From contig OY987227.1 in NCBI GenBank assembly GCA_963920705.1, positions 21,849,434-21,913,433 of the forward strand: 64,000 nt of DNA, written 5' to 3'. A model generated the notes under the pieces. That model ran no database searches, was not told where the DNA came from, and saw only the letters and a program-made list of their open reading frames with translations. Position numbers and translations under genes: made by a program. The stretch's first letter is position 1. Each line of letters begins with the position of its first letter. This stretch comes from Odiellus spinosus (taxonomy: Eukaryota > Arthropoda > Arachnida > Opiliones > Phalangiidae). Positions 12,529 to 64,000 of the stretch are shown piece by piece.

Positions 12529-12867
12529 CAGAAGCCGATGAAACCCTCCTTTGAAGTCTACTACTCCAATGTTCCATATAGCGCTCCTCTCTGTATGGGT
12601 AAAATTCCCAATTTTACGAGTTAGAAGGGGTCCTACTTCATCCCCCCCTGTCTACGGAAAATTGGAAATTCTCTCTCTCCACAAACGACGACGTTTTTTT
12701 GGACGAACTCCAAGGCTGCTAGAGATATTCGCTCGACGAGCTCCCGCTCCGAAAACATCTACCGTTAGGAGGCGTACGAATCGCGCCTTTTGAGAATAAC
12801 CCATACGGAGAGGGGTAGACAAGGCTCGGGAGTAATAGACTTCAAAGGAGGGTTTCATCGGCTTCTG
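12529..12867 (+). mobile_element. Family A MITE, copy 2
   Basis: A 339-bp element in the same orientation as copy 1, with ends CAGAAGCC...GGCTTCTG. It is flanked by the 7-bp duplication GTATAGG (12522-12528 and 12868-12874). Non-coding. Confidence 0.93.
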
Positions 12868-16110: not shown

Positions 16111-16174
16111 TACAGGGTGGATAAGATCAAAAACTCAATATGGGAAAAATTACAATGTAATTTGCCATAGAAGA

Positions 16175-19100
16175 TATTTTACGTTTTGACGATTTTTTTT
16201 TAAAAGGAATCTTCCGTTTTGACGATTTTTTTTTAAAAGGAATCTTCCGTTTTGACGATTTTTTTTTTAAAGGAATCTTCCGTTTTGACGATTTTTTTTA
16301 AAAGGAATCTTCCGTTTTGACGATTTTTTTTTTAAAGGAATCTTCCGTTTTGACGATTTTTTTTTAAAAGGAATCTTCCGTTTTGACGATTTTTTTTTAA
16401 AAGGAATCTTCCGTTTTGACGATTTTTTTTTAAAAGGAATCTTCCGTTTTGACGATTTTTTTTTAAAAGGAATCTTCCGTTTTGACGATTTTTTTTTAAA
16501 AGGAATCTTCCGTTTTGACGATTTTTTTTTAAAAGGAATCTTCCGTTTTGACGATTTTTTTTTAAAAGGAATCTTCCGTTTTGACGATTTTTTTAAAAGG
16601 AATTTCCCGTTTTGTCGATTTTTCTTAAAAGGAATTTCCCGTTTTGTCGATTTTTCTTAAAAGGAATTTCCCGTTTTGTCGATTTTTCTTAAAAGGAATT
16701 TCCCGTTTTGTCGATTTTTCTTAAAAGGAATTTCCCGTTTTGTCGATTTTTCTTAAAAGGAATTTCCCGTTTTGTCGATTTTTCTTAAAAGGAATTTCCC
16801 GTTTTGTCGATTTTTCTTAAAAGGAATTTCCCGTTTTGTCGATTTTTCTTAAAAGGAATTTCCCGTTTTGTCGATTTTTCTTAAAAGGAATTTCCCGTTT
16901 TGTCGATTTTTCTTAAAAGGAATTTCCCGTTTTGTCGATTTTTCTTAAAAGGAATTTCCCGTTTTGTCGATTTTTCTTAAAAGGAATTTCCCGTTTTGTC
17001 GATTTTTCTTAAAAGGAATTTCCCGTTTTGTCGATTTTTCTTAAAAGGAATTTCCCGTTTTGTCGATTTTTCTTAAAAGGAATTTCCCGTTTTGTCGATT
17101 TTTCTTAAAAGGAATTTCCCGTTTTGTCGATTTTTCTTAAAAGGAATTTCCCGTTTTGTCGATTTTTCTTAAAAGGAATTTCCCGTTTTGTCGATTTTTC
17201 TTAAAAGGAATTTCCCGTTTTGTCGATTTTTCTTAAAAGGAATTTCCCGTTTTGTCGATTTTTCTTAAAAGGAATTTCCCGTTTTGTCGATTTTTCTTAA
17301 AAGGAATTTCCCGTTTTGTCGATTTTTCTTAAAAGGAATTTCCCGTTTTGTCGATTTTTCTTAAAAGGAATTTCCCGTTTTGTCGATTTTTCTTAAAAGG
17401 AATTTCCCGTTTTGTCGATTTTTCTTAAAAGGAATTTCCCGTTTTGTCGATTTTTCTTAAAAGGAATTTCCCGTTTTGTCGATTTTTCTTAAAAGGAATT
17501 TCCCGTTTTGTCGATTTTTCTTAAAAGGAATTTCCCGTTTTGTCGATTTTTCTTAAAAGGAATTTCCCGTTTTGTCGATTTTTCTTAAAAGGAATTTCCC
17601 GTTTTGTCGATTTTTCTTAAAAGGAATTTCCCGTTTTGTCGATTTTTCTTAAAAGGAATTTCCCGTTTTGTCGATTTTTCTTAAAAGGAATTTCCCGTTT
17701 TGTCGATTTTTCTTAAAAGGAATTTCCCGTTTTGTCGATTTTTCTTAAAAGGAATTTCCCGTTTTGTCGATTTTTCTTAAAAGGAATTTCCCGTTTTGTC
17801 GATTTTTCTTAAAAGGAATTTCCCGTTTTGTCGATTTTTCTTAAAAGGAATTTCCCGTTTTGTCGATTTTTCTTAAAAGGAATTTCCCGTTTTGTCGATT
17901 TTTCTTAAAAGGAATTTCCCGTTTTGTCGATTTTTCTTAAAAGGAATTTCCCGTTTTGTCGATTTTTCTTAAAAGGAATTTCCCGTTTTGTCGATTTTTC
18001 TTAAAAGGAATTTCCCGTTTTGTCGATTTTTCTTAAAAGGAATTTCCCGTTTTGTCGATTTTTCTTAAAAGGAATTTCCCGTTTTGTCGATTTTTCTTAA
18101 AAGGAATTTCCCGTTTTGTCGATTTTTCTTAAAAGGAATTTCCCGTTTTGTCGATTTTTCTTAAAAGGAATTTCCCGTTTTGTCGATTTTTCTTAAAAGG
18201 AATTTCCCGTTTTGTCGATTTTTCTTAAAAGGAATTTCCCGTTTTGTCGATTTTTCTTAAAAGGAATTTCCCGTTTTGTCGATTTTTCTTAAAAGGAATT
18301 TCCCGTTTTGTCGATTTTTCTTAAAAGGAATTTCCCGTTTTGTCGATTTTTCTTAAAAGGAATTTCCCGTTTTGTCGATTTTTCTTAAAAGGAATTTCCC
18401 GTTTTGTCGATTTTTCTTAAAAGGAATTTCCCGTTTTGTCGATTTTTCTTAAAAGGAATTTCCCGTTTTGTCGATTTTTCTTAAAAGGAATTTCCCGTTT
18501 TGTCGATTTTTCTTAAAAGGAATTTCCCGTTTTGTCGATTTTTCTTAAAAGGAATTTCCCGTTTTGTCGATTTTTCTTAAAAGGAATTTCCCGTTTTGTC
18601 GATTTTTCTTAAAAGGAATTTCCCGTTTTGTCGATTTTTCTTAAAAGGAATTTCCCGTTTTGTCGATTTTTCTTAAAAGGAATTTCCCGTTTTGTCGATT
18701 TTTCTTAAAAGGAATTTCCCGTTTTGTCGATTTTTCTTAAAAGGAATTTCCCGTTTTGTCGATTTTTCTTAAAAGGAATTTCCCGTTTTGTCGATTTTTC
18801 TTAAAAGGAATTTCCCGTTTTGTCGATTTTTCTTAAAAGGAATTTCCCGTTTTGTCGATTTTTCTTAAAAGGAATTTCCCGTTTTGTCGATTTTTCTTAA
18901 AAGGAATTTCCCGTTTTGTCGATTTTTCTTAAAAGGAATTTCCCGTTTTGTCGATTTTTCTTAAAAGGAATTTCCCGTTTTGTCGATTTTTCTTAAAAGG
19001 AATTTCCCGTTTTGTCGATTTTTCTTAAAAGGAATTTCCCGTTTTGTCGATTTTTCTTAAAAGGAATTTCCCGTTTTGTCGATTTTTCTTAAAAGGAATT

Positions 19101-19970
19101 TCCCGTTTTGTCGATTTTTCTTAAAAGGAATTTCCCGTTTTGTCGATTTTTCTTAAAAGGAATTTCCCGTTTTGTCGATTTTTCTTAAAAGGAATTTCCC
19201 GTTTTGTCGATTTTTCTTAAAAGGAATTTCCCGTTTTGTCGATTTTTCTTAAAAGGAATTTCCCGTTTTGTCGATTTTTCTTAAAAGGAATTTCCCGTTT
19301 TGTCGATTTTTCTTAAAAGGAATTTCCCGTTTTGTCGATTTTTCTTAAAAGGAATTTCCCGTTTTGTCGATTTTTCTTAAAAGGAATTTCCCGTTTTGTC
19401 GATTTTTCTTAAAAGGAATTTCCCGTTTTGTCGATTTTTCTTAAAAGGAATTTCCCGTTTTGTCGATTTTTCTTAAAAGGAATTTCCCGTTTTGTCGATT
19501 TTTCTTAAAAGGAATTTCCCGTTTTGTCGATTTTTCTTAAAAGGAATTTCCCGTTTTGTCGATTTTTCTTAAAAGGAATTTCCCGTTTTGTCGATTTTTC
19601 TTAAAAGGAATTTCCCGTTTTGTCGATTTTTCTAAAAGGAATTTCCCGTTTTGTCGATTTTTCTAAAAGGAATTTCCCGTTTTGTCGATTTTTCTAAAAG
19701 GAATTTCCCGTTTTGTCGATTTTTCTAAAAGGAATTTCCCGTTTTGTCGATTTTTCTAAAAGGAATTTCCCGTTTTGTCGATTTTTCTAAAAGGAATTTC
19801 CCGTTTTGTCGATTTTTCTAAAAGGAATTTCCCGTTTTGTCGATTTTTCTAAAAGGAATTTCCCGTTTTGTCGATTTTTCTAAAAGGAATTTCCCGTTTT
19901 GTCGATTTTCTAAAAGGAATTTCCCGTTTTGTCGATTTTCTAAAAGGAATTTCCCGTTTTGTCGATTTTT
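16175..19970 (+). repeat. 30-34-bp minisatellite array, roughly 118 units
   Basis: The core unit contains AAAAGGAATTTCCCG followed by TTTTGTCGATTTTTCTT, which totals 32 bp. Three zones run in order. About 13 units of a ~33-bp variant (AATCTTCCG, GACGA, long T run) lie at the left. About 95 almost identical 32-bp units occupy roughly 16.59-19.63 kb. About 11 units of 30-31 bp (TTTCTAAAAGG) lie at the right. There are no unique spacers, so this is not a CRISPR array. Translations of the array are artefacts. Confidence 0.97.
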
Positions 19971-20060
19971 GTCGAATTTAGAAGAAACTTTCAGTTTAGT
20001 CGATTTTTGTCGAATTTAGAAGAAACTTTCAGTTTAGTCGATTTTTGTCGAATTTAGAAA
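19966..20060 (+). repeat. 38-bp diverged flank units of the minisatellite
   Basis: About 2.5 units of a 38-bp repeat (GTCGAATTTAGAAGAAACTT then TCAGTTTAGTCGATTTTT) border the right side of the array. They share GTCGATTTTT with the main unit. They may represent an older form from which the homogeneous array was amplified. Confidence 0.75.
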
Positions 20061-20218
20061 TTTTTCGTTTATTGTTAATTTTCGTCAAAAATTAGTGGTT
20101 TTCATAATTTTAGAAATAATATTATTTTTCCTTGCTTAATTTCTATGGCAAAATTAGACTGGAAATTTTACAATAAATGCATAGAAGCTATTGAGTTTTT
20201 GATCTGAATCACCCTGTA

Positions 20219-24099: not shown

Positions 24100-24790
24100 T
24101 GATTTTCCAGGTTTTACCTGACTGTTTTTTAATATTTTCCTGACCAATATTTAAAAGTTTACGTGATTACATACTCCTATTGGCGAGCTGCTTTGCAATG
24201 CACACTTTTCTTACGTTGTTTGAAATATATATACAAGTTAGGGGCTTTTAGGTATTTAAGGGAACTGGTGGGAGCCCTGTAAGAGTATACACATAATATT
24301 CCCTAACTTTCCCTGACCTTTTGGCTAATTTTCAAATTCCCTTTATTGTCCCTGATCTTTTGGCTAATTTTCAAATTACCTTTATTGTCCCTGACATTTT
24401 AGGTCCATTTTGAAACTAGCTTACTTTTTCCTGACCTTTAGAAGTCCATTTTGAAATTAGCTTCTTCCCCTTCCCCTGACCTTTTAGACTCATTTTCAAA
24501 TTACCTTGCTTTTCTTGACCTTTCAATTTTAGGCTAATTTTCTAATTCCCTTTATTGTCCCTGATCTTTTTACTAATTTTCAAATTCCCTTTATTGTCCC
24601 TGACATTTTAGGTCTATTTTGAAACTAGCTTACTTTTCCCTGACCTTTAGAGGTCCATTATGAAATTAGCTTCTTTCCCTGACCTTTTAGACTCATTTTT
24701 AAATTACCTTGCTTTTCTTGACCTTTTAATTTTAGGTTCATTTTAAAATTTCCCTACTTTTTCAGACCTTTTGGGCCTTCTTTTCCAGTT
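24100..24790 (+). repeat. Degenerate CCCTGACCTTTT tandem array with higher-order period
   Basis: About 16 units of roughly 38-45 bp, each like CCCTGACCTTTT followed by TTTTCAAATT and a T-rich tail. A block of several units (about 24340-24530) recurs at about 24560-24740, so there is a higher-order period near 220 bp. A short related piece (TTTTCCCTGACCTGTGGCAA) lies near 32790. Confidence 0.8.
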
Positions 24791-26407: not shown

Positions 26408-26746
26408 CAGAAGCCGATGAAACCCTCCTTTGAAGTCTATTACTCCCGGGTCTTGTCTACCCCTCTCTGTATGGGTTAGTTTGAAAAAGCGCGATTCGTA
26501 CGCCTCCTAACGGTACATATTTTCGGAGCGGGAGTTCGTCGAGCGAATATCTCTAGCAGCCTTGGAGTTCGCCAAAAAAAACGTCGTCGCTTGTGGAGAG
26601 AGAGAATTTCTAATTTTGCGTAGACAGGGGGGGATGAAGTAGGACCCCTCCGACCTCGTAAAATTTTGAATTTTACCCATACAGAGAGGAGCGCTATATG
26701 GAACAATAGAGTAGTAGACTTCAAAGGAGGGTTTCATCTACTTCTG
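26408..26746 (-). mobile_element. Family A MITE, copy 3
   Basis: A 339-bp element in the opposite orientation to copies 1 and 2. The flanking 7-bp duplication is AAGTTAA (26401-26407 and 26747-26753). The right terminal repeat has substitutions (CTACTTCTG in place of CGGCTTCTG), so this copy is older or more mutated. Confidence 0.92.
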
Positions 26747-31221: not shown

Positions 31222-31554
31222 CAGAACCGATGAAACCCTCCTTTGAAGTCTACTACTCCAATGTTCCATATAGCGCTCCTCTCTGTATGGGTAAAATTCC
31301 CAATTTTACGAGTTAGAAGGGGTCCTACTTCATCCCCCCTGTCTACGGAAAATTGGAAATTCTCTCTCCACAAACGACGACGTTTTTGGACGAACTCCAA
31401 GGCTGCTAGAGATATTCGCTCGACGAACTCCCGCTCCGAAAACATCTACCGTTAGGAGGCGTACGAATCGCGCCTTTTGAGAATAACCCATACAGAGAGG
31501 CGTAGACAAGACCCGAGAGTAATAGACTTCAAAGGAGGGTTTCATCGGCTTCTG
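31222..31554 (+). mobile_element. Family A MITE, copy 4
   Basis: A 333-bp element flanked by the 7-bp duplication GTATTCG (31215-31221 and 31555-31561). The left end reads CAGAACCGATG, a 1-base loss relative to the consensus. Non-coding. Confidence 0.92.
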
Positions 31555-39579: not shown

Positions 39580-42044
39580 TCATTTGATTCCGTTCGAAAA
39601 TTTCAACGCTGGAGCAGTTGAGTTTTTCATGCCTATAGTTTCTACGTGAAATCCGATACGTTCAAGTTTTTCCACATCCACCATTTTACGTCCGTCAAAA
39701 AAAAACGCCGGTTTCAACATAATATCATGCATCATCTTATAATCCAATTCCTATTTAAGAAAATTTTTATTGACTTTCAGGTATTTTAATTAAATTTGAA
39801 GGAATAGTAACACTTTTTGTTAGGTTTTTCTTTTTAAATAAGCTAGTGACTAAAATCCTCTGTTCATTATCCAGCGCTTTATTTTAAAGCACTAAGTGGA
39901 GTAGCTTTTTTAGAAACTCCCTCTATCTAAATATCCAATGGGTCCAACCATTTAATTTTCTTTCTCTGTCCCGTGAACGATGAAAGTGTAGGGCCAAACC
40001 AATACGAATATAAGATTTATATCTGTATTAGTTTTAATATCATGGATTTAACGATACATCGGTTTCACATGACACTCCAATCGTAATTTTTTTCAGTGTA
40101 AAAAACTAAAAAATATGAATTTCATCTCAAAAATTGAAATTTTTAAATATTCGAGAGCCAAAACTCTATAGCCTCAAGAATATCGGTTGAAGAAACTATC
40201 TGCTCTTTAAAGTCCCCTTTAGCATACAACTTTGGCAATAACAAGTCAAAGCTAGGTCTTTAACCTCGATATCGGGATCGGTTCAACCTCAATATCGGAT
40301 TCGATTACATAAATAACTATATAAGCCAACACTTTCCATCCCAATTAAAATTTTGAACAAGTCGTGCTACTATCCCTTCAAGTTTTTTTTTTTTAGTTTG
40401 GTTTTTACCAAAAATTCCTCCCATTCTGTGCATATCACTAATGCGTGAGTTCCTTCTGCGGCTGAATAGGGACTGGTATGAATACTTATTCTGGATTTTG
40501 CTAGAAAAAGGATAAATATTTCGTAAGATTAAAATTGAGAGGATGAGAAAATTTAAAACTAACTGCTTTCATCATCAGGCAAATCACGATAAATCTGCTC
40601 TTTTGGCACTTTCGGGTCGTATATGCGAAGATGAGCCCCTTCCTCTAGTAGATATTTGCAAATATATATTGCCGGAGATTCTCTAAAAGTATTTTTTAAA
40701 TACAGTTCGAATAAAAAATCATAATTGTTTTCCTTTTCAAAAATATTAATATACCTGGTATCGCCAGTATTTTTCTTAAAGGCAAAACCTAAGATAGCCA
40801 ATTTTTTATCAGCCAGGGTATTAAACAAGCAATTAATAATTCTTCGAGCAAATCGAGATTTTTGGTAATCATTCATTTCCACGACTTGATACCAATAAGC
40901 CGCCACCTCGGGGAGATTCAAACACTCGCACAAATAAACGAGATTTAGCAAATCTTTTTGGAAGCAACTCCCACCATAACCCACACTAGCTTGAAGATAT
41001 TTTGGCCCTAGCCTCGAATCCATTCCAACAGCGTGGGCAACTTCAGAAACATCAGCTCCAGTAGCTTCGCAAACTGCGGATATGGCATTGATACTAGAAA
41101 TACGTTGAGCTAGAAAGGCATTAGCAGCCTTTCAAGAATATTTTTAGTAATGAGAGCTACTGGTTTCCAATTAAAAAGCTTCGTGAGATAAAAAAACATA
41201 CGAGCTTAGACAATTCAGAAGACCAGGTATTCATAGTGATTATTTTATCCGGCGTAATCCAATGCTCGTAAATGGAACATAGTTTTTTGATAGCAGCTTG
41301 CCCTTCTGGCGTTTTATCCCCGCCAATAAGAATCCGATCGGGGTTTAGAAGATCTTTGACCGCGGAACCTTCGGCCAGAAATTCTGGATTTGAAAGAATC
41401 TAGTTTCGAAAATTTAGAATTTTATGTAAAATAATAGAATTGATTTAGCGGTTATGACCTGGAAATCGATTCCTTCTTTGGTATTCGCCTTCAAAATACG
41501 GCAAATACTCTCGGCAGCTTTAACAGGAACTGTACTCTTTTCTACCACAATTTTACTACTCTCTGAAACATCAGCTATGATTCTCGAACAAGACTCAAGA
41601 TATCTCAAATCAGCGGCTCGTCCCTGATTAAATAAACTTTCAAAATTAATGACATTTAAGGCTTGATGAAACTTTGTTTTAAATTTCATTTACTTTTCCA
41701 AACCCATAGGTTTTAGTCGGAGTATTCACTGATATGAATATTAACTCCGCTTCTTTGATAGCTTTTTCAACATCTTCAGAATAGAATAAATTTCTTCCTC
41801 GACACTCCTTGACAATTTCCTGAAGTCCTGGCTATAGAAAAATATTTAATACCTTTGTCTTTATCAGAATTTTAGAATATAATACCTCATAAATTGGAAG
41901 GTTATCAGAATTCCATTGCTGAATTCGACTGGCATTCTTGTCAACTACAACGACTTTGATATCGGGGCATTTGTAGGCAATTACGCTGCACGTTGGTCCT
42001 CCAACATAACCAGCTCCAATACAGCAAATTGATTTGATAGACAT
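39580..42044 (-). CDS. UGDH: UDP-glucose 6-dehydrogenase, eight exons
   Basis: It oxidises UDP-glucose to UDP-glucuronate with 2 NAD+ in the cytosol, supplying glycosaminoglycan synthesis and glucuronidation. Exons in transcription order are 42044-41886, 41831-41694, 41623-41459, 41399-41202, 41128-40755, 40682-40564, 40500-40409 and 39750-39580. All joins are GT-AG and in phase, giving 471 residues. Visible motifs are the Rossmann motif GAGYVG (residues 10-15), NTPTKTYG, the segment SNPEFLAEG with Glu160, LSKLAANAF with Lys219, and the catalytic Cys275 in [10 protein letters not shown]. Each is one residue before its human counterpart. The C-terminal UDP-binding domain includes [12 protein letters not shown] and [11 protein letters not shown]. 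The tail is about 20 residues shorter than in vertebrates. Introns are mostly 54-73 nt; only the last (658 nt) is long, and it contains a family C fragment near 40198. The gene appears intact. Confidence 0.96.
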
Positions 42045-49425: not shown

Positions 49426-49570
49426 CTTAAAGCTCACTCATTTTGTCAGATTATGTAAGGAATTTATAGAGAAAATATGATAAAGCCAATGTATAGAAGA
49501 AAAACCTAAATGGTGCTAGAATTGTTTGCGCTGTAACGTAATTTAGTCTAAACCGATTGGAGTTCCTATT

Positions 49571-49879
49571 AGCCGCGTTCATATTAGGCCTTGCATATGG
49601 AATCGATTTAAATCGTTTCCAAACGTTTCGCTAGAGTCGTGTGAACGGGAAAACCGTCTTTTCTCGAATCGATTTGATTCGATTTCTCGAAACTGCCTCG
49701 GGAACCAGTTTCATATAGATTTGGTTTCAACAACTGATAGATGAAGCTACAATAAATCGATTTATAACTAGATAATGCGTGAACACGTGACGCTTAAAAC
49801 GATTCCGGGCGATTTTAATATCGGTTAGATTTTACCGTTTCAAATCGATTAAGAAATGCTAGTGTGACCGTAGCTAATG
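49571..49879 (+). mobile_element. Family B MITE, well-preserved copy
   Basis: Runs from TTAGCCGCGTTCATATTAGG to CTAGTGTGACCGTAGCTAA, about 305 bp. The body contains TTTCGCTAGAGTCGTGTGAA and AACTGCCTCGGGAACCAGTT, shared with the 0.6, 51.7 and 62.6 kb copies. Non-coding. Confidence 0.8.
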
Positions 49880-49977: not shown

Positions 49978-50808
49978 CAGAAGCCGATGAAACCCTCCTT
50001 TGAAGTCTATTACTCCCGGGTCTTGTCTATCCCTCTCTGTATGGGCACAAGTAAATCATCCCCAAGTCTACAAGACGACATACTACTGGTTACAATGATG
50101 AAGGTCCGATTTCCTCAGTCAATGATTCCACCCTAAGTATTCCAAATTTCTACAGAAGAGCGGTATGGCCCAGTATTGCTGGTAGAGTAAATCAAACTTG
50201 AACTCGCGACGCCCCGGCGAGGGCCTCTTTCGTTTCGCTAGAGAGAGGGGAAAGCCGAGTTTCTTAGTTACATTTCCTACCCCCCTTAACGATTCTACAG
50301 ACGACGCGCGAAGTCGCGAACGAACTTCAACGAAGGCAAAATAATTAGCACCGCCTACTTAGTTCCTACCTTAACCGCTAGAGAGGGCAATTTCGACTTC
50401 TGTTTCTCGGCCGTTTTACAATTTTGAGATTTTTCCTCTCTCCCCGCGCGAAAGTTGTGACGACACAACTCTCAGACCTTCAGTTCATTCGTTATATGCC
50501 CGGTTGTAGACTTGAAGCATGATTTACCTGTGGTATGGGTTATTCTCAAAAGGCGCGATTCGTACGCCTCCTAACGGTAGAGGTTTTCGGAGCGGGAGTT
50601 CCTCGAGCGAATATCTCTAGCAACCTTGGAGTTCGTCCAAAAACGTCGTCGTTTGTGAAGAGAGAGAATTTCCAATTTTCCTTAGACAGGGGGGATGAAG
50701 TAGGGACCCCTTCTAACTCGTAAAATTGGGAATTTAACCCATACAGAGAGGAGCGCTATATGGAACATTGGAGTAGTAGACTTCAAAGGAGGGTTTCATC
50801 GGCTTCTG
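49978..50808 (-). mobile_element. Family A MITE, copy 5, interrupted by another element
   Basis: Outer ends CAGAAGCC and GGCTTCTG are flanked by the 7-bp duplication ACCAAAA (49971-49977 and 50809-50815). An unrelated 487-bp element sits inside one terminal-repeat region (separate entry). Removing that insert and one copy of its duplication leaves 337 bp, the normal family A length. Confidence 0.93.
50046..50532. mobile_element. Nested MITE (N1) inside family A copy 5
   Basis: 487 bp with imperfect inverted ends. The left end is CACAAGTAAATCATCCCCAA; the right end reads inversely CACAGGTAAATCATGCTTCA. Both continue to AAGTCTAC. It is flanked by the direct repeat GTATGGG (50039-50045 and 50533-50539), which is host family A sequence duplicated on insertion. 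It is GC-richer than its surroundings and has no transposase. I see no second copy in this window. Confidence 0.88.
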
Positions 50809-50977
50809 ACCAAAACTAAAGTTTTTAAACGTTGACAATTTTGACATTTTTAGTAGTCTGACATTCTGCAAATATAATGAGTTCTTGATATAGAACTAAG
50901 ACAATTGTAGCACTTTAAGGTCAGTAATAAATATCGTCTACAATTCCTTTCCCAAGACATCGAAAGGTACATCATAT

Positions 50978-51346: not shown

Positions 51347-51636
51347 CTATAAAAAGTCAATAACATTTATCTTTTATTCAGTATGACACTTAATTTAATA
51401 TCCTTAAGTCTAATTGCGGATTAGAGATTACATAATCAAATTAACATATAACCTTTAAACTTTTTAAAGATTGAGTGAATTGAAAAATTATTTTGAATGC
51501 GAGGATCAGGACAAAATAGAAGTATTACTTAATAGCCTAGCTTGCCAGTGTTTTCAATTCAAAGTGCAAAACAATTTAATTTTAATTCGTATTAACTTAC
51601 TCGAGAGCTAATCTTAGGCCGCTTAGCGGAGTTACT

Positions 51637-51877
51637 AAAGCTACGGTCACACTAGCATTTCTTAATCGATTTGAAACGGTATTATCAAACCGATATTCAA
51701 ATCGATTTATTGTAGCTTCATCTATCGGTTGCTCAAATCGAATCGGTATGAAACTGGTTCCCGAAGCAGTTTCGAGAAATCGAATCAAATCGACGGTTTC
51801 CCGTTCATACGACTCTAGCGAAACGTTTGGAAACGATTTAAATCGATTCCAAGGCCTCGTATGAACGCGGCTAAATT
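51637..51877 (-). mobile_element. Family B MITE, reversed copy
   Basis: Runs from AAGCTACGGTCACACTAGCA to CGTATGAACGCGGCTAAA. It carries the same body as the 49.6 kb copy in inverse orientation. It lies immediately upstream of the candidate minus-strand exons ending at 51601. Confidence 0.8.
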
Positions 51878-52479
51878 GAAATTAAATAAAAAAAAAAACT
51901 ACCGCTGATTAGTCTAAGAAAGGGGCTCGAAGTTTTTAATTGTTAATAATTTACGATCGAGTGAGATGTAATCTCGGAAAAAAACTCAAGGCGTTTCTTT
52001 TCGCGCTCCCTTTAAGCACGATTCCTCTTCTCATTTCCCATAGGGTAACTTAAAAAAAAATGTTAATTACGTAACAAAAGACTTTTAGAAAATTTATCGC
52101 TATAATGGTAGGAAGAGTGAAGGAGCAGAGACGGCTTGCAGAATTGAAATGAAAGATAAACATCTTTCCCAGAGAGAATAAAGGGAATAGTAGATGAGTA
52201 TACGCTGTTTTTAAAGAGGGATGCAACATAATTATTATTTTTATAGATGTTAGTTTCCGGTAAATTGGACATATCGAATCATAACTATATTTCAGAAAAT
52301 ACTACTCATTTTACATTTGGAACTCGTGAAAAAAAAAAGTAATAGATAATCTTAAAAAATGTCAGAAATCCGATCCAATTACAGACGACACAAAAAATAT
52401 AATTCAAAATAAAACTCCTTGAGAAACTTGTAGTATAAACACACTTAAATCTAGACGAATTTTTGTACGTCTTAATTAC
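51878..52479. other. Intergenic, nothing supported
   Basis: AT-rich. The minus frame at 52063-52272 has no supporting features. Confidence 0.45.
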
Positions 52480-52486
52480 ATATTAC

Positions 52487-52822
52487 CAGAAGCCGATGAA
52501 ACCCTCCTTTGAAGTCTATTACTCCCGGGTCTTGTCTACCCCTCTCTGTATGGGTTATTCTCAAAAGGCGCGATTCGTACGCCTCCTAACGGTAGATGTT
52601 TTCGGAGCGGGAGCTCGTCGAGCGAATATCTCTAGCAGCCTTGGAGTTCGTCCAAAAAACGTCGTCGTTTGTGGAGAGAGAGAATTTCCAATTTTCCGTA
52701 GACAGGGGGAAGAAGTAGGACCCCTTCTAACTCGTAAAATTGGGAATTTTACCCATACAGAGAGGAGCGCTATATGGAACATTGGAGTAGTAGACTTCAA
52801 AGGAGGGTTTCATCGGCTTCTG
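52487..52822 (-). mobile_element. Family A MITE, copy 6
   Basis: A 336-bp element flanked by the 7-bp duplication ATATTAC (52480-52486 and 52823-52829). Both terminal repeats are intact (CAGAAGCCGATGAAACCC). The 124-codon plus frame here is only the element read through. Confidence 0.93.
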
Positions 52823-55286: not shown

Positions 55287-55497
55287 ATTAAGTTCATATT
55301 CCTTGGATTCGATTCAACGGGAAACCGTTTTTTCTCGAAACAATTTCAATCGATTTGGCTTCAACAATTTTCAGATGAAACTATAATAAATCGGTTCATG
55401 AACATGAGGCTTCAAACGATTTCCAGCGATTTAAATATCGGTTTGATTTTACTGTAAAAAATTAAGTTTTCGATACGCTAGCATGAACGTAGCTTTA
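55287..55497 (+). mobile_element. Family B MITE abutting the transporter stop codon
   Basis: A degraded copy starting within a few bases of TGA (AATTAAGTTCATATTCCTTG) and ending CGCTAGCATGAACGTAGCTT. The body shows GGGAAACCGTTTTTTCTCGA and ACTATAATAAATCGGTTC. It should form the start of the transporter's 3' UTR, and it contains an AATAAA (about 55385) that could serve as a poly(A) signal. Confidence 0.7.
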
Positions 55498-57615
55498 GTT
55501 AATGCTGAATATATCACATTATTATTAAATTAATTGTAAACGAAAAAGCGTGTCGTATCATTATCACGAATTGCAAATAGCAAACGAAGCTTTTTGGGCA
55601 ATATAATACAGATTATTATTTGTAATAACTTATCAGAAATAAATTCCTCAATTAACTTCATCTTATTAATCAATTAATAATTAATAAAGCTCATGACAAT
55701 AATTAATAATTAAAATTGTGTCCTTTGTAGCCATGGAATTATTGTTGAGCCTAAAAGTTAAAAATTGATTTCAATCTTAAAATCGTTTTGAAAGACGGAC
55801 GTTCGAGGAATTTCGCTATTGTCGCTTAGGAATGTTCCCTGTAAAACAATGTACTTTTAATGAAACTACTACTATATTTTCTTCGATATTAAATCCATTT
55901 AACTTCGTGAAGTACCTTCAGATACGCGAGATCTATTCCCGGGTTTTTTTTTACATTATTAATATATCGGCTCGCGGCTTTTCCGTTAAAATACTGACAG
56001 GGACGGTAAAAAAAGGTATCTTTTTAGCGGATCTTCAAAAAAAATGTAATACATATACTTTTTATACGTAATCTATCAAAATACGTCGGAACAATGAGCG
56101 GCTCTATTTCGAGCTACTCGGAAAATGAAATGTTCTATTTTAATATCTACGGAATTTAACAGCGTTTATAATGCTACCGTCGCGTTGTTCGTTCGATCTA
56201 TTTCAACTGGCCCCCAGGTATAGTTTGTTCTCCGCAGTTTCTCTTCAAAGGGAAAAGATTGAAAATTGTATTTGGAGGCGCTATATAGTCTCGTGATTTT
56301 AAAAGTCTGAGACCCAGACACGCCTTCTTCTTCTTATACATAAAAATAATAATAATTTAATAAATTCCGACGAAGGGGTCTTCTAAAATAATACCTTTCC
56401 GATCAACCCCGATTTATTTATCTTCCATATTTCAAATTATTGATCGTTGTTGTTGACTGCATGATCAAAACGAGGATAATACAACCATGGAACAATAAAA
56501 CAATTAGGGGTCATTTGTAAACTTTGCTCACTGAGAGAAGTAATTATGAGAAAATTCATATATTTTAAAAACTAGTCAACCCAAAGGTGTAAAATTTGTA
56601 TATAAATTTTTAATTGTATGAAAAATATAATCCTTGGAAAATATATCACTTTAAAACTATTAAGGTCTTACTATCAGTAAACTGGTTGATATTGCAAAAA
56701 TTAATTTGAAAATTTCACGGGGTCTTTTAAAAAGACGAGTTCTATAATTTCGTAGGATGAAAATAAAATTTACATACAAACAAATAACTCAACAAGAGAG
56801 AACCCGCATCTTTTCCGTGGGTAAACTAAATTCCAGCACGCGCAAAAGTTTTCCCAGCAAGCAATATGCCCGCCCAAGAGGCCCTATAAGATAGCAAATA
56901 GGGTTATGTTACGACCTTAAACCTCAGACGTAATTTTATTTAAGACTTTAAAAACAACAATAGAAATTTACGTAACAACAAAACGCGGACGTTTGAGAAA
57001 TAGCGAGAGAGAGAGATAGAGAGAAATGAAATACACGAAAAAACCCTTTTTTAACAAATCTATACAAAGCGAGCTAGGGTTTGAATTTTTTTTTTTTTTT
57101 TTCTATTTTTTAACTTTTGAGTGAAAAATCTTTCACTCGTTCGTCTTTCAAGTTTACCGAAGAAGAAAAGGTGAAGCCCTTTTATTTCTTCTTGATCCCT
57201 AACAAGTAGATAATAGTAGACGAATAAGAAGAGGAGAATATTCTAGTCTGAGGAGGAAAAAAAGGCGCGCGCGTCGAGACGGGACGAATGGGAGACGCGA
57301 TGTGCATTACGAATTTTCACTCTTCATTATTATAGACGCCTAAATATATAATTTTTCCACTGGACCAACGCCAAGGCTTAACGCAGCTGCCCCTCTCGGT
57401 TGTGGTGGTGATGATGGCTTGAAGTATCCCCTCTTCCAAACTAGCTTAGTTCTTAAAGGGAAGACTAAACGCGACTTAAGCTACGCTCTTAATTTAACAA
57501 AATGTTTTTTTCGGATTAGCGTAAGATGGAGCTTAGTATAGAAGCATGATTAGACCCTCAAAGTGTAGGAGATTTTCACCATCTATCCATAATAATTGGC
57601 TAGTTTGTCTATGTT
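55498..57615. other. Intergenic, nothing supported
   Basis: AT-rich. The ATG frame at 55832-56071 has no recognisable motif. A GAGA-rich stretch lies near 57004-57026 and a T run at about 57089-57105. Confidence 0.45.
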
Positions 57616-60576: not shown

Positions 60577-62569
60577 AGGTAAATAAAGGTGGAGAGTCTT
60601 TCGATTAGTCGGGGGCTCTCCTTTAAATTCAATGCCAAATTCTGAATCTTTTCAGATTTTTTGCAGAATTCAGAGACAAATTTTCCAAATGTTTTAATAC
60701 GCGAATAAGATTTATTTTTTATAGTAAAATCGATAAAAAATATATCCATTTCATTATTCACCCCCCTTTAATACTTTTTATATACAATATACCGTAGCTA
60801 AAATTGAATTTACTCCAAATATTGAAGTTTTATAAACACACTTTTTATATTAAACGAGAGACAGATGCTCTTCGCTTCAGATTCAATTTATGGAAGGTAC
60901 TATGTAACTCAATTTTAATCCAATTTAATCAGGATTTAATCGATGAAGGCGCGTAATTATTAATGGGAGTGACCTGACCAAAAATTGTCAGTTTGAGACC
61001 TATTTAGCGTTTTAAACTAACATCGATTTTTACACTGACAGTGGCGGTAGGCTGAGTAGGCTGTAGCCTAAGTGTAAATTTCAAGGGGATACATTAAAAA
61101 ACCTAGCCCTTATAGGTTAGTCTACGCAGAAAAAAATTATGGTACCGTCATGCACTGTCGAGCAGGGGCTGAACATGTAATCGTTGTACAAATTTGAGTA
61201 CTAATTAAGTATAACCAATCAGTTTCGTTAATCTCGTAGAAAATCTAACTTATAACCCCCTGTACAAAGGACTTGAAGTCCTGCACAGTTAGTGAGACTA
61301 AATTTCATTGTTGACCTTTTTTTTTTATTCTTTCATCTCAAATTTTGGAAAAAAAGCTATCTCCGAGCCAGGGCCCTAGCTAGGCAGGGGTGATAAGGCA
61401 TAGGGGCGCCAAAATTGGTCTGGTTTTGATATATTAATTAGGGGGTGCCATAAACATTTGTTCACCCCGGGCGCATACAGCCCTGCTCCGAGCCAAAAAT
61501 CGGTCGAATAATCCTTATAATTTTTAAGGGGAGACTCCGGATTTAATTTAAAACATGATTCCAGAAAATCATTTAACGCCCATTAGCGTAATACTACTCC
61601 ACCAACCGAAAACTCCAGCGTAAGGAGTACGCACAAACGGCTGCCGAGAGAAATTTAGCCTCAAAGATAAGAGGATGGAAAATAAAAGAAAAAAATTAAA
61701 CAATGAGTTTCCATATAAAACGCCAACCTGTCTACTTCTGTACATCGACTTCTGATCTCACAGATGTATATAATTTTATCTGTTAGCTTTTTTTTTTTTT
61801 TTTTAATATCTAAAAAGAGCGTCAAATCTTCGTATCTCTTGTCTAGAGAGACTCTTGTTTAACATATAACCTATAAGTTCAGCATTGGTGCATGGTTTTG
61901 GTTTTAGAACGTTATTGGAATTTTTAAACTTGAAACTTAATTCTGTTAGAAAACGAGCTAGAGGGTTGAATCACCTTCCTATAAACTAATATAATATAGA
62001 AAATATATATACCGGTATCTTCCTGTTTGAAATTGGGAGCTTTAAGTTTTCAAAAGATCACCTTTTAGTTTGAGAGGTCGTGTTTTTTAGATGATGTATG
62101 TGAAGGGTGTGATTTGCCCGAGGCTTTCAGATATCTCCAAGCTTTTCTGCAAGACGTGGGATATCTGGGTACATATTAAGTATCCTTATTGTTGATTACG
62201 ATTGAAAAAAAGGAAGTTAAATCCTATGGGAAACCGTGTTTAATCAAATTTACAGGGCCACCCTATGGCGTCGCTACTGGTCAAAGATAAAATTCTACCT
62301 GGGATTATACAGGTTTACAGTGACAGTCAAAGAACAATGTTTCAAAATTTGAACATTTTGGAGCCCCCATCCAAAAAACGGTAAACTAATTTCATCTTAT
62401 AAAAATTAAGTTACACCATGAATTTATAAATTCATGGTTACACGCAGAACACGATGGTGCAATTCTTAATTGGATAACAACCGATGGAAAGCTTAAGATA
62501 AAATTATTAAAAGCTAGCACTGCAGATGAAGAGCATCTACATGAACCCTAAAAGAAAAATATTAATTGA
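60577..62569. other. Intergenic, nothing supported
   Basis: AT-rich, with a T run near 61788-61804. No exon is recognised. Confidence 0.45.
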
Positions 62570-62866
62570 GCTGCGTTCATACTAGGCCTTAGAATCGATT
62601 TAAACAGTTTCAAAACGTTTCGCTAGAGTCGTGTGAACGGGAAAGCGTCTTATCTCGAATCGATTTGACTCGATTTCTCGAAACTGCTTCGGGAACCAGT
62701 TTATAACTGATTCGATTTCAATAACCAAGAGATGAAGCTACAATAAATCGATTTATTAAGATAATACGTGAACATATGACGCTTAAAACGATTTCTAGCG
62801 CTTTGAATATCTGTTTGATTTTACCGTTTCAAATCGATTAAGAAATGCTAGTGTGACCGTAGCTTA
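62570..62866 (+). mobile_element. Family B MITE, last copy
   Basis: Runs from TTGAGCTGCGTTCATACTAG to GCTAGTGTGACCGTAGCTTAA, about 297 bp. The body matches the 49.6 kb copy closely (TTTCGCTAGAGTCGTGTGAA). Confidence 0.8.
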
Positions 62867-64000
62867 AGATTGATACCATGTGCGCGTCGTTTTCATCCTG
62901 AACGCCGGTGCGCTGCAGTTAAAATCCTTTAAAATCTTTCTACGCGCCTGTAGAAGTGTTCTAACGGTAGATCTTGGTTGCTTAGGGTGCAGACCGCCAA
63001 TAGGGGCAGATTTATTAATGCGGTATAAGTACCGCATCCTTAATACATATTTTCCAAAAAAATTAAACAAACTTTCATTGGTTGTGATTTTTAAAAATTA
63101 TACCATCGTGAACAGCATATAAAGGGATTTTGTGCACAAAGCTTTTGAACTAATTGAAACGGCTATTCCAGTAAATTTCGTTGCTCCTTCCTTTTGAAGC
63201 TTAAAATTTTGCTAGCGTTGCTTATGTGATAAATGATCCATATGCAGTGCATTGTTAAAATTTGGGTCTTAAGGCAAAATATATAGAAATATAATTTTAA
63301 ATTTTCATAATATCAGCAATTTTCATTAAAAATACTGAAGATTAAATTAAAGAGTTTAGTACATATAATTTCTATATTTTTTCACCTTTGTTTTCTAAGT
63401 TATAAATGTGTAAATATAGTTTTGCCAATACGCTCCGACCTCAATCAGTATTACTCATTTTTAAAGCTTATAGCCTTAGAAATTCTTTCGTTGGTAACTG
63501 GCATCTTTGTGGAAGAAAAATTCCACCTTTGAGTAAAAATTCGTAAACTACAATAACATCTAAGAGATTTATTCCGAAAAATGATGAAAGATGGGGTTGC
63601 ATATTGGGAATTGTTGAGAATGAAGGAAGCCAAAAAATAAGGACCACGCAAATCGTTTCGGCTGTCCCACGGAGGAAATACACCAGAGTCAAATACCAGA
63701 TCTTTATCTACATTATAACGATCCCTGATCTCAAACCTTCAAAACTATAGCTTATTTTCGTTGCACTCTACGAATGGATCGAACTCGTTCTAAGTTCCCC
63801 GCTGCGTAAAACTCCGCCACCACACACCTGCAGAACTAAAGCTTCTATGTAGGGAGGATAGTGGACTGGGCCAAGCCATCCCAGGGAGAGAAAGAGAAAA
63901 TATTCCAAGAGCGACCAGCATGCGGCTGGGATACGAATTTTTAAGAAAGATGGTGGTGCGATGGTTTCATTTCAAAAAAGAGAGGGGGTACGCGACGTAC
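62867..64000. other. Intergenic to window end
   Basis: A diverged piece of the 90-bp repeat (GCGCCTGTAGAAGTGTTCTA) lies at about 62944. A minus-strand frame of about 100 codons at 63451-63740 has no ATG near its start and no family resemblance. The final 200 bases show no feature. Confidence 0.4.

Follow-up and report, generated by a model that had tools for sequence, protein, structure and literature searches.

The segment at positions 16111-20218 of the 64-kb window (the whole stretch of DNA that was analysed) is probably a non-autonomous DNA element which is bounded by terminal inverted repeats (TIRs) with TA at each end, is most likely of the Tc1/mariner type, and contains a minisatellite that expanded in place; this explanation covers both the birth of the first repeat unit within the element and its capture. 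The observed parts are the paired ends, a subterminal 12-mer, one homologous lineage of units in block-wise order, and a block of 94 identical units (Table 1).

Table 1. Positions of the element, its parts and other features within the window
Feature	Positions	Strand	Remarks
Left terminal inverted repeat, TACAGGGTG...AGATCAAAAACTCAATA	16111-16140	+	Starts with TA, the putative target-site dinucleotide
Left subterminal arm	16141-16181	+	Contains TTTGCCATAGAA at 16161-16172, inverted in right arm too
5' block, 12 units of 32-33 bp, CGTTTTGACGA...GGAATCTTC type	16182-16576	+	Unit split
Single 31-bp hybrid unit	16577-16607	+	First half 5'-type, second half main-type
Main block, 94 identical 32-bp units	16608-19615	+	Unit split; exact period-32 run
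3' block, nine 31-bp units then two of 30 bp	19616-19954	+	Unit split
Edge block, hybrid 39-bp, 38-bp and last 44-bp unit	19955-20075	+	44-bp unit continues into right arm
Right subterminal arm	20076-20188	+	Sequence; collinear 12-mer common with left arm
Right terminal inverted repeat, ends CACCCTGTA	20189-20218	-	27/30 against left end
Dispersed MITE copies	2580-2918, 12529-12867, 26408-26746, 31222-31554, 52487-52822
Dispersed MITE, split copy	49978-50808
Insert in the split copy	50046-50532
Second dispersed family, copies	628-886, 49569-49875, 51635-51883, 55306-55502, 62558-62868	both orientations
Degenerate array	24306-24772
UDP-glucose 6-dehydrogenase gene, several exons	40562-42044	-	Pfam; split across several frames

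Ends, boundaries and class of the element

The boundaries proposed in a preliminary description of this DNA proved exact, and its terminal repeat of about 30 bp was recovered as an inverted pair, TACAGGGTG...CACCCTGTA (of the CAGGGTG..AGATCAAAAACTC kind), in which 27 of 30 positions are identical when the left end is compared with the reverse complement of the right one. Further inwards, TTTGCCATAGAA of the left arm has a collinear inverted match of 12/12 in the right arm (20152-20141); among 20,000 arm pairs drawn at random, 29 share an inverted 12-mer of any sequence. Aligned in inverted orientation, the 200-bp flanks score 46 at best, a value that was reached at none of 2,038 other positions in the window with identical spacing (25-base steps, excluding positions that touch the element region). 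Among random 200-bp pairs from outside the region (20,000 drawn, 132 discarded as too close together, 19,868 left) it was reached by 32, with a maximum of 220, and we take these 32 to be putative copies of the dispersed repeats of the window. Considering that the 30-bp pair and the collinear 12-mer are each rare among controls, the pairing of the ends is not ascribed to chance, and the two together make a TA-ended TIR element well supported as a reading of the sequence. The alternative without an element, in which a satellite array lies by coincidence between two short sequences that resemble each other, is accordingly most improbable: TACAGGGTG by itself is indeed common when up to one mismatch is allowed (seven found in the window for 5.4 expected), but such coincidences do not extend to the full end pair and the 12-mer.

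At both ends of the element TA adjoins CAGGGTG, TA being common in AT-rich DNA, and no target-site duplication longer than TA is visible at the flanks. Longer duplications are detectable in this window, since a dispersed MITE family, members of which are 333-339 bp long and have CAGAAGCCGATGAAACCC or a close variant of it at their ends, shows a perfect 7-bp duplication in all six copies found.

The likeliest class is Tc1/mariner, a plausible assignment derived from the TA ends and the CAGGGTG start, which are weak evidence in AT-rich DNA. The best hint from outside is MITE_83.0 of Rhodnius prolixus, labelled ‘Tc1-like ?’ and 489-1073 bp long, whose ends begin with TACAGGGTG as they do here; the bases that follow differ from those of the present element, and the table passage in which it appears mentions no array (PMC4678618). 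The segment had originally been called a mariner-like MITE filled by a minisatellite, and of this the TIR boundaries and the nearly all-array interior stand, while the miniature size does not: at 4,108 bp, or 214 bp once the array is removed, the element lies as it stands outside the hundreds of bp of a small MITE and is better termed non-autonomous and MITE-like than miniature. A Pfam scan that covered 20 out of 104 listed reading frames (at least 70 codons each) found no transposase. Six of the 20 gave matches, these being four pieces of UDP-glucose dehydrogenase, one EamA transporter and one methyltransferase, and neither Rfam at gathering thresholds nor ARAGORN returned a match. The best solved relatives of the dehydrogenase are animal enzymes, so that the DNA probably comes from an animal and perhaps from an insect.

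Apart from the element, the window contains several other repeats. The CA ends and 7-bp duplications of the dispersed MITE family presumably recall the P/Galileo/Hoppel group; a search for host contamination with this MITE as the probe gave no match, nor did its end in the literature. One copy is split by a nested MITE-like element of 487 bp, which has inverted ends of its own, albeit imperfect ones (CACAGGTAAATCATG... / ...GATGATTTACTTGTG), and a 7-bp duplication, CCCATAC. A second dispersed family has members of approximately 200-310 bp, and a degenerate array is composed of units of about 39-41 bp (TCCCTGACCTTTT...) with a 248-bp higher-order duplication.

Anatomy of the internal array

Tandem Repeats Finder reported a period of 32, 118.5 copies and 99% matches at 16182-19970. 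Splitting of the array at the unit start yielded 121 units with 10 distinct sequences; 118 of the units measure 30-33 bp (16182-19954), and after them come three related ones of 39, 38 and 44 bp that extend to 20075. This agrees with the previously estimated 118 or so units of 30-34 bp and, together with the 214 bp that remain outside the array, with the view that the interior is nearly all satellite. Being made of tandem units tens of bp long, the array is a minisatellite, and open stretches within it reach up to 129 residues.

The unit types mostly occupy contiguous blocks, of which the 5' block is a mixture of three close variants, and hybrid units are located at two of the block borders. 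In the main block the 94 consecutive units are letter-for-letter identical, with zero differences over 3,008 bp; this identity could in part be a product of assembly or polishing. Single-strand folding of three unit pairs gave stabilities no better than those of shuffled sequences (z 0.12, 0.01 and -0.25).

As a separate observation, made post hoc and possibly due to chance, the minus strand of 16577-19954 carries 106 matches to GGGAAATTCC, which fit the Rel/NF-kB consensus GGGRNNYYCC. This consensus has six matches elsewhere in the window, and the 12 units of the 5' block, judged by their sequence, are without the GGGAAATTCC site.

History of the array and mobility of the element

Homology between the 32-bp and the 38-bp unit is shown by their alignment score of 60, which was equalled by none of 1,000 shuffles and none of 3,000 window segments. 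When the seven unit types are taken in their observed order, the path through them has a length of 22 for a minimum of 21, and only 18 of the 5,040 possible orders are as short (reversals counted). Homologous units in contiguous blocks that are nearly ordered by similarity fit a single lineage which was amplified locally inside the element and underwent a recent burst; judged from the letters, the block order fits what serial local amplification would leave. In the course of events that we propose, the element would have been inserted by a transposase acting in trans, the array would have grown through unequal exchange, slippage or gap repair, and a single 32-bp unit would have given rise to the main block in the recent burst; any mobilisation would likewise have occurred in trans. 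If mutation rates between 1e-8 and 3e-9 per base are assumed, the zero differences in 3,008 bp imply that the main block was homogenised within approximately 1e5 to 3e5 generations, unless assembly contributed to its uniformity. This possible contribution of assembly or polishing is counted against the favoured explanation, as are the lack of a sibling in the window, a target-site duplication that consists of TA only, the lack of a transposase in the 20 frames, and the 32 of 19,868 random pairs that score as high as the flanks.

The arms of the element were considered as a source of the first unit; their similarity to the units is not significant against dinucleotide shuffles and, for the right arm, is borderline against window segments. 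Shuffles as good as the observed match with the right arm numbered 354 of 1,000 for the 38-bp unit and 508 of 1,000 for the 32-bp unit, and 97 of 1,000 when the 38-bp unit was compared with the reversed arm; for the left arm three tests gave 94, 60 and 596 of 1,000. Among 3,000 real window segments, 140 and 123 were as good in the direct right-arm tests, which is borderline, 292 in the reversed test, which is weaker than the direct ones, and 616 to 1,621 in the left-arm tests, which is weak. On these comparisons the likeness of the unit to the arms is borderline at best. A minisatellite that already existed elsewhere may have entered the element, either through gap repair or as an insertion, and have expanded later, a tentative reading to which we give somewhat less than an even chance and which, overlapping the main explanation, is a variant of it concerning the origin of the first unit. 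It draws on the six shuffle tests (60 to 596 of 1,000) and on the same route having been proposed for the ancestor of miDNA4 (see below), but with the two borderline right-arm values the unit may instead descend from the arm, and it is without a close copy elsewhere in the window, where only short chance matches to it were found.

The preliminary description suggested that transposition could plant the array at new loci, which is a hypothetical route of dispersal. No convincing second copy of the element exists within the window, and a BLAST search of the masked window, with the arms and the units as queries, recovered besides the element itself short matches only. The subterminal 17-mer, with up to three mismatches, has four matches in the window for 1.0 expected, a number reached by none of 100 shuffles. 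Two of them belong to the element; the other two (40154-40170 and 50875-50891, three mismatches each) have no adjoining TACAGGGTG-like end and were dismissed as chance. In IMG/VR the 17-mer occurs at nine loci, which is about the chance level (an estimate with an assumed collection size), TACAGGGTG is absent ahead of ATCAAAAACTC from all 10 matched loci, and a 23-base stretch of the 32-bp unit has no match. The one IMG/VR locus that matches the TIR pattern (L010) was rejected as chance, since 401 bases at this locus hold no partner end and the match itself is the only CACCCTG in the locus. A stricter TIR pattern found no match across prokaryote genomes, and among the literature matches listed, as far as their titles and abstracts tell, none has transposon ends as its subject.

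It could equally well be right or wrong that a host minisatellite grew within a MITE-like element that was dead and fixed, its ends being fossils and its array never having been cargo; this overlaps the main explanation and differs from it only by denying that the array travelled. The ends differ at three of 30 positions and the main block at none, so that the present form of the array may be younger than the ends, and the window has no sign of movement. Nothing decisive speaks against such a dead element, but three differences in 30 are also compatible with activity. The opposite proposal, that the element is an active seeder of satellites, its array being carried along by mobilisation in trans and copies with differing unit counts being planted throughout the genome, is unlikely; gap repair after each excision would in that case lengthen or homogenise the array.

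Tandem repeats in known transposons

The source study of miDNA4 is said to be that of Scalvenzi and Pollet (2014), and Satovic and Plohl (2013) reportedly described MITEs containing tandem repeats in the clam Donax trunculus. According to the cited passages, miDNA4 is a Tc1/mariner MITE of Xenopus with a satellite inside, which is either a single monomer or an array (PMC12628747; PMC9659126), for which array growth inside the element and the capture of a minisatellite by its ancestor have been proposed (PMC9659126; PMC12628747). As in miDNA4, whose array varies in copy number (PMC9659126; PMC12628747), TIRs here flank an internal tandem array; the present locus differs in its approximately 120 short units at a single site, the comparison being one of anatomy and not of sequence. 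Xstir, a further Xenopus MITE carrying tandem repeats (PMC12628747), and the Donax trunculus MITEs resemble the element in having MITE ends around tandem repeats and are unlike it in taxon, units and ends, as far as the sources at hand describe them. Tetris, a foldback element of Drosophila virilis with 220-bp repeats within its TIRs, is similarly non-autonomous with internal tandem repeats, and these are described as seeding satellite arrays (PMC4079207); its repeats lie in the TIRs, in contrast to the one short-unit array between short TIRs found here.

Since array-carrying MITEs are described in reviews, the anatomy of the element belongs to a known kind, and the principle has been published for several animals in the passages cited (PMC9659126; PMC12628747). 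The array is strikingly long and homogeneous, but no record is claimed for it relative to the known cases. It has long been asked how satellites arrive at new sites on chromosomes, and a long, apparently freshly homogenised array within a TIR element would be one whose growth could be followed stepwise; copies within one genome would reveal whether transposition carries such arrays.
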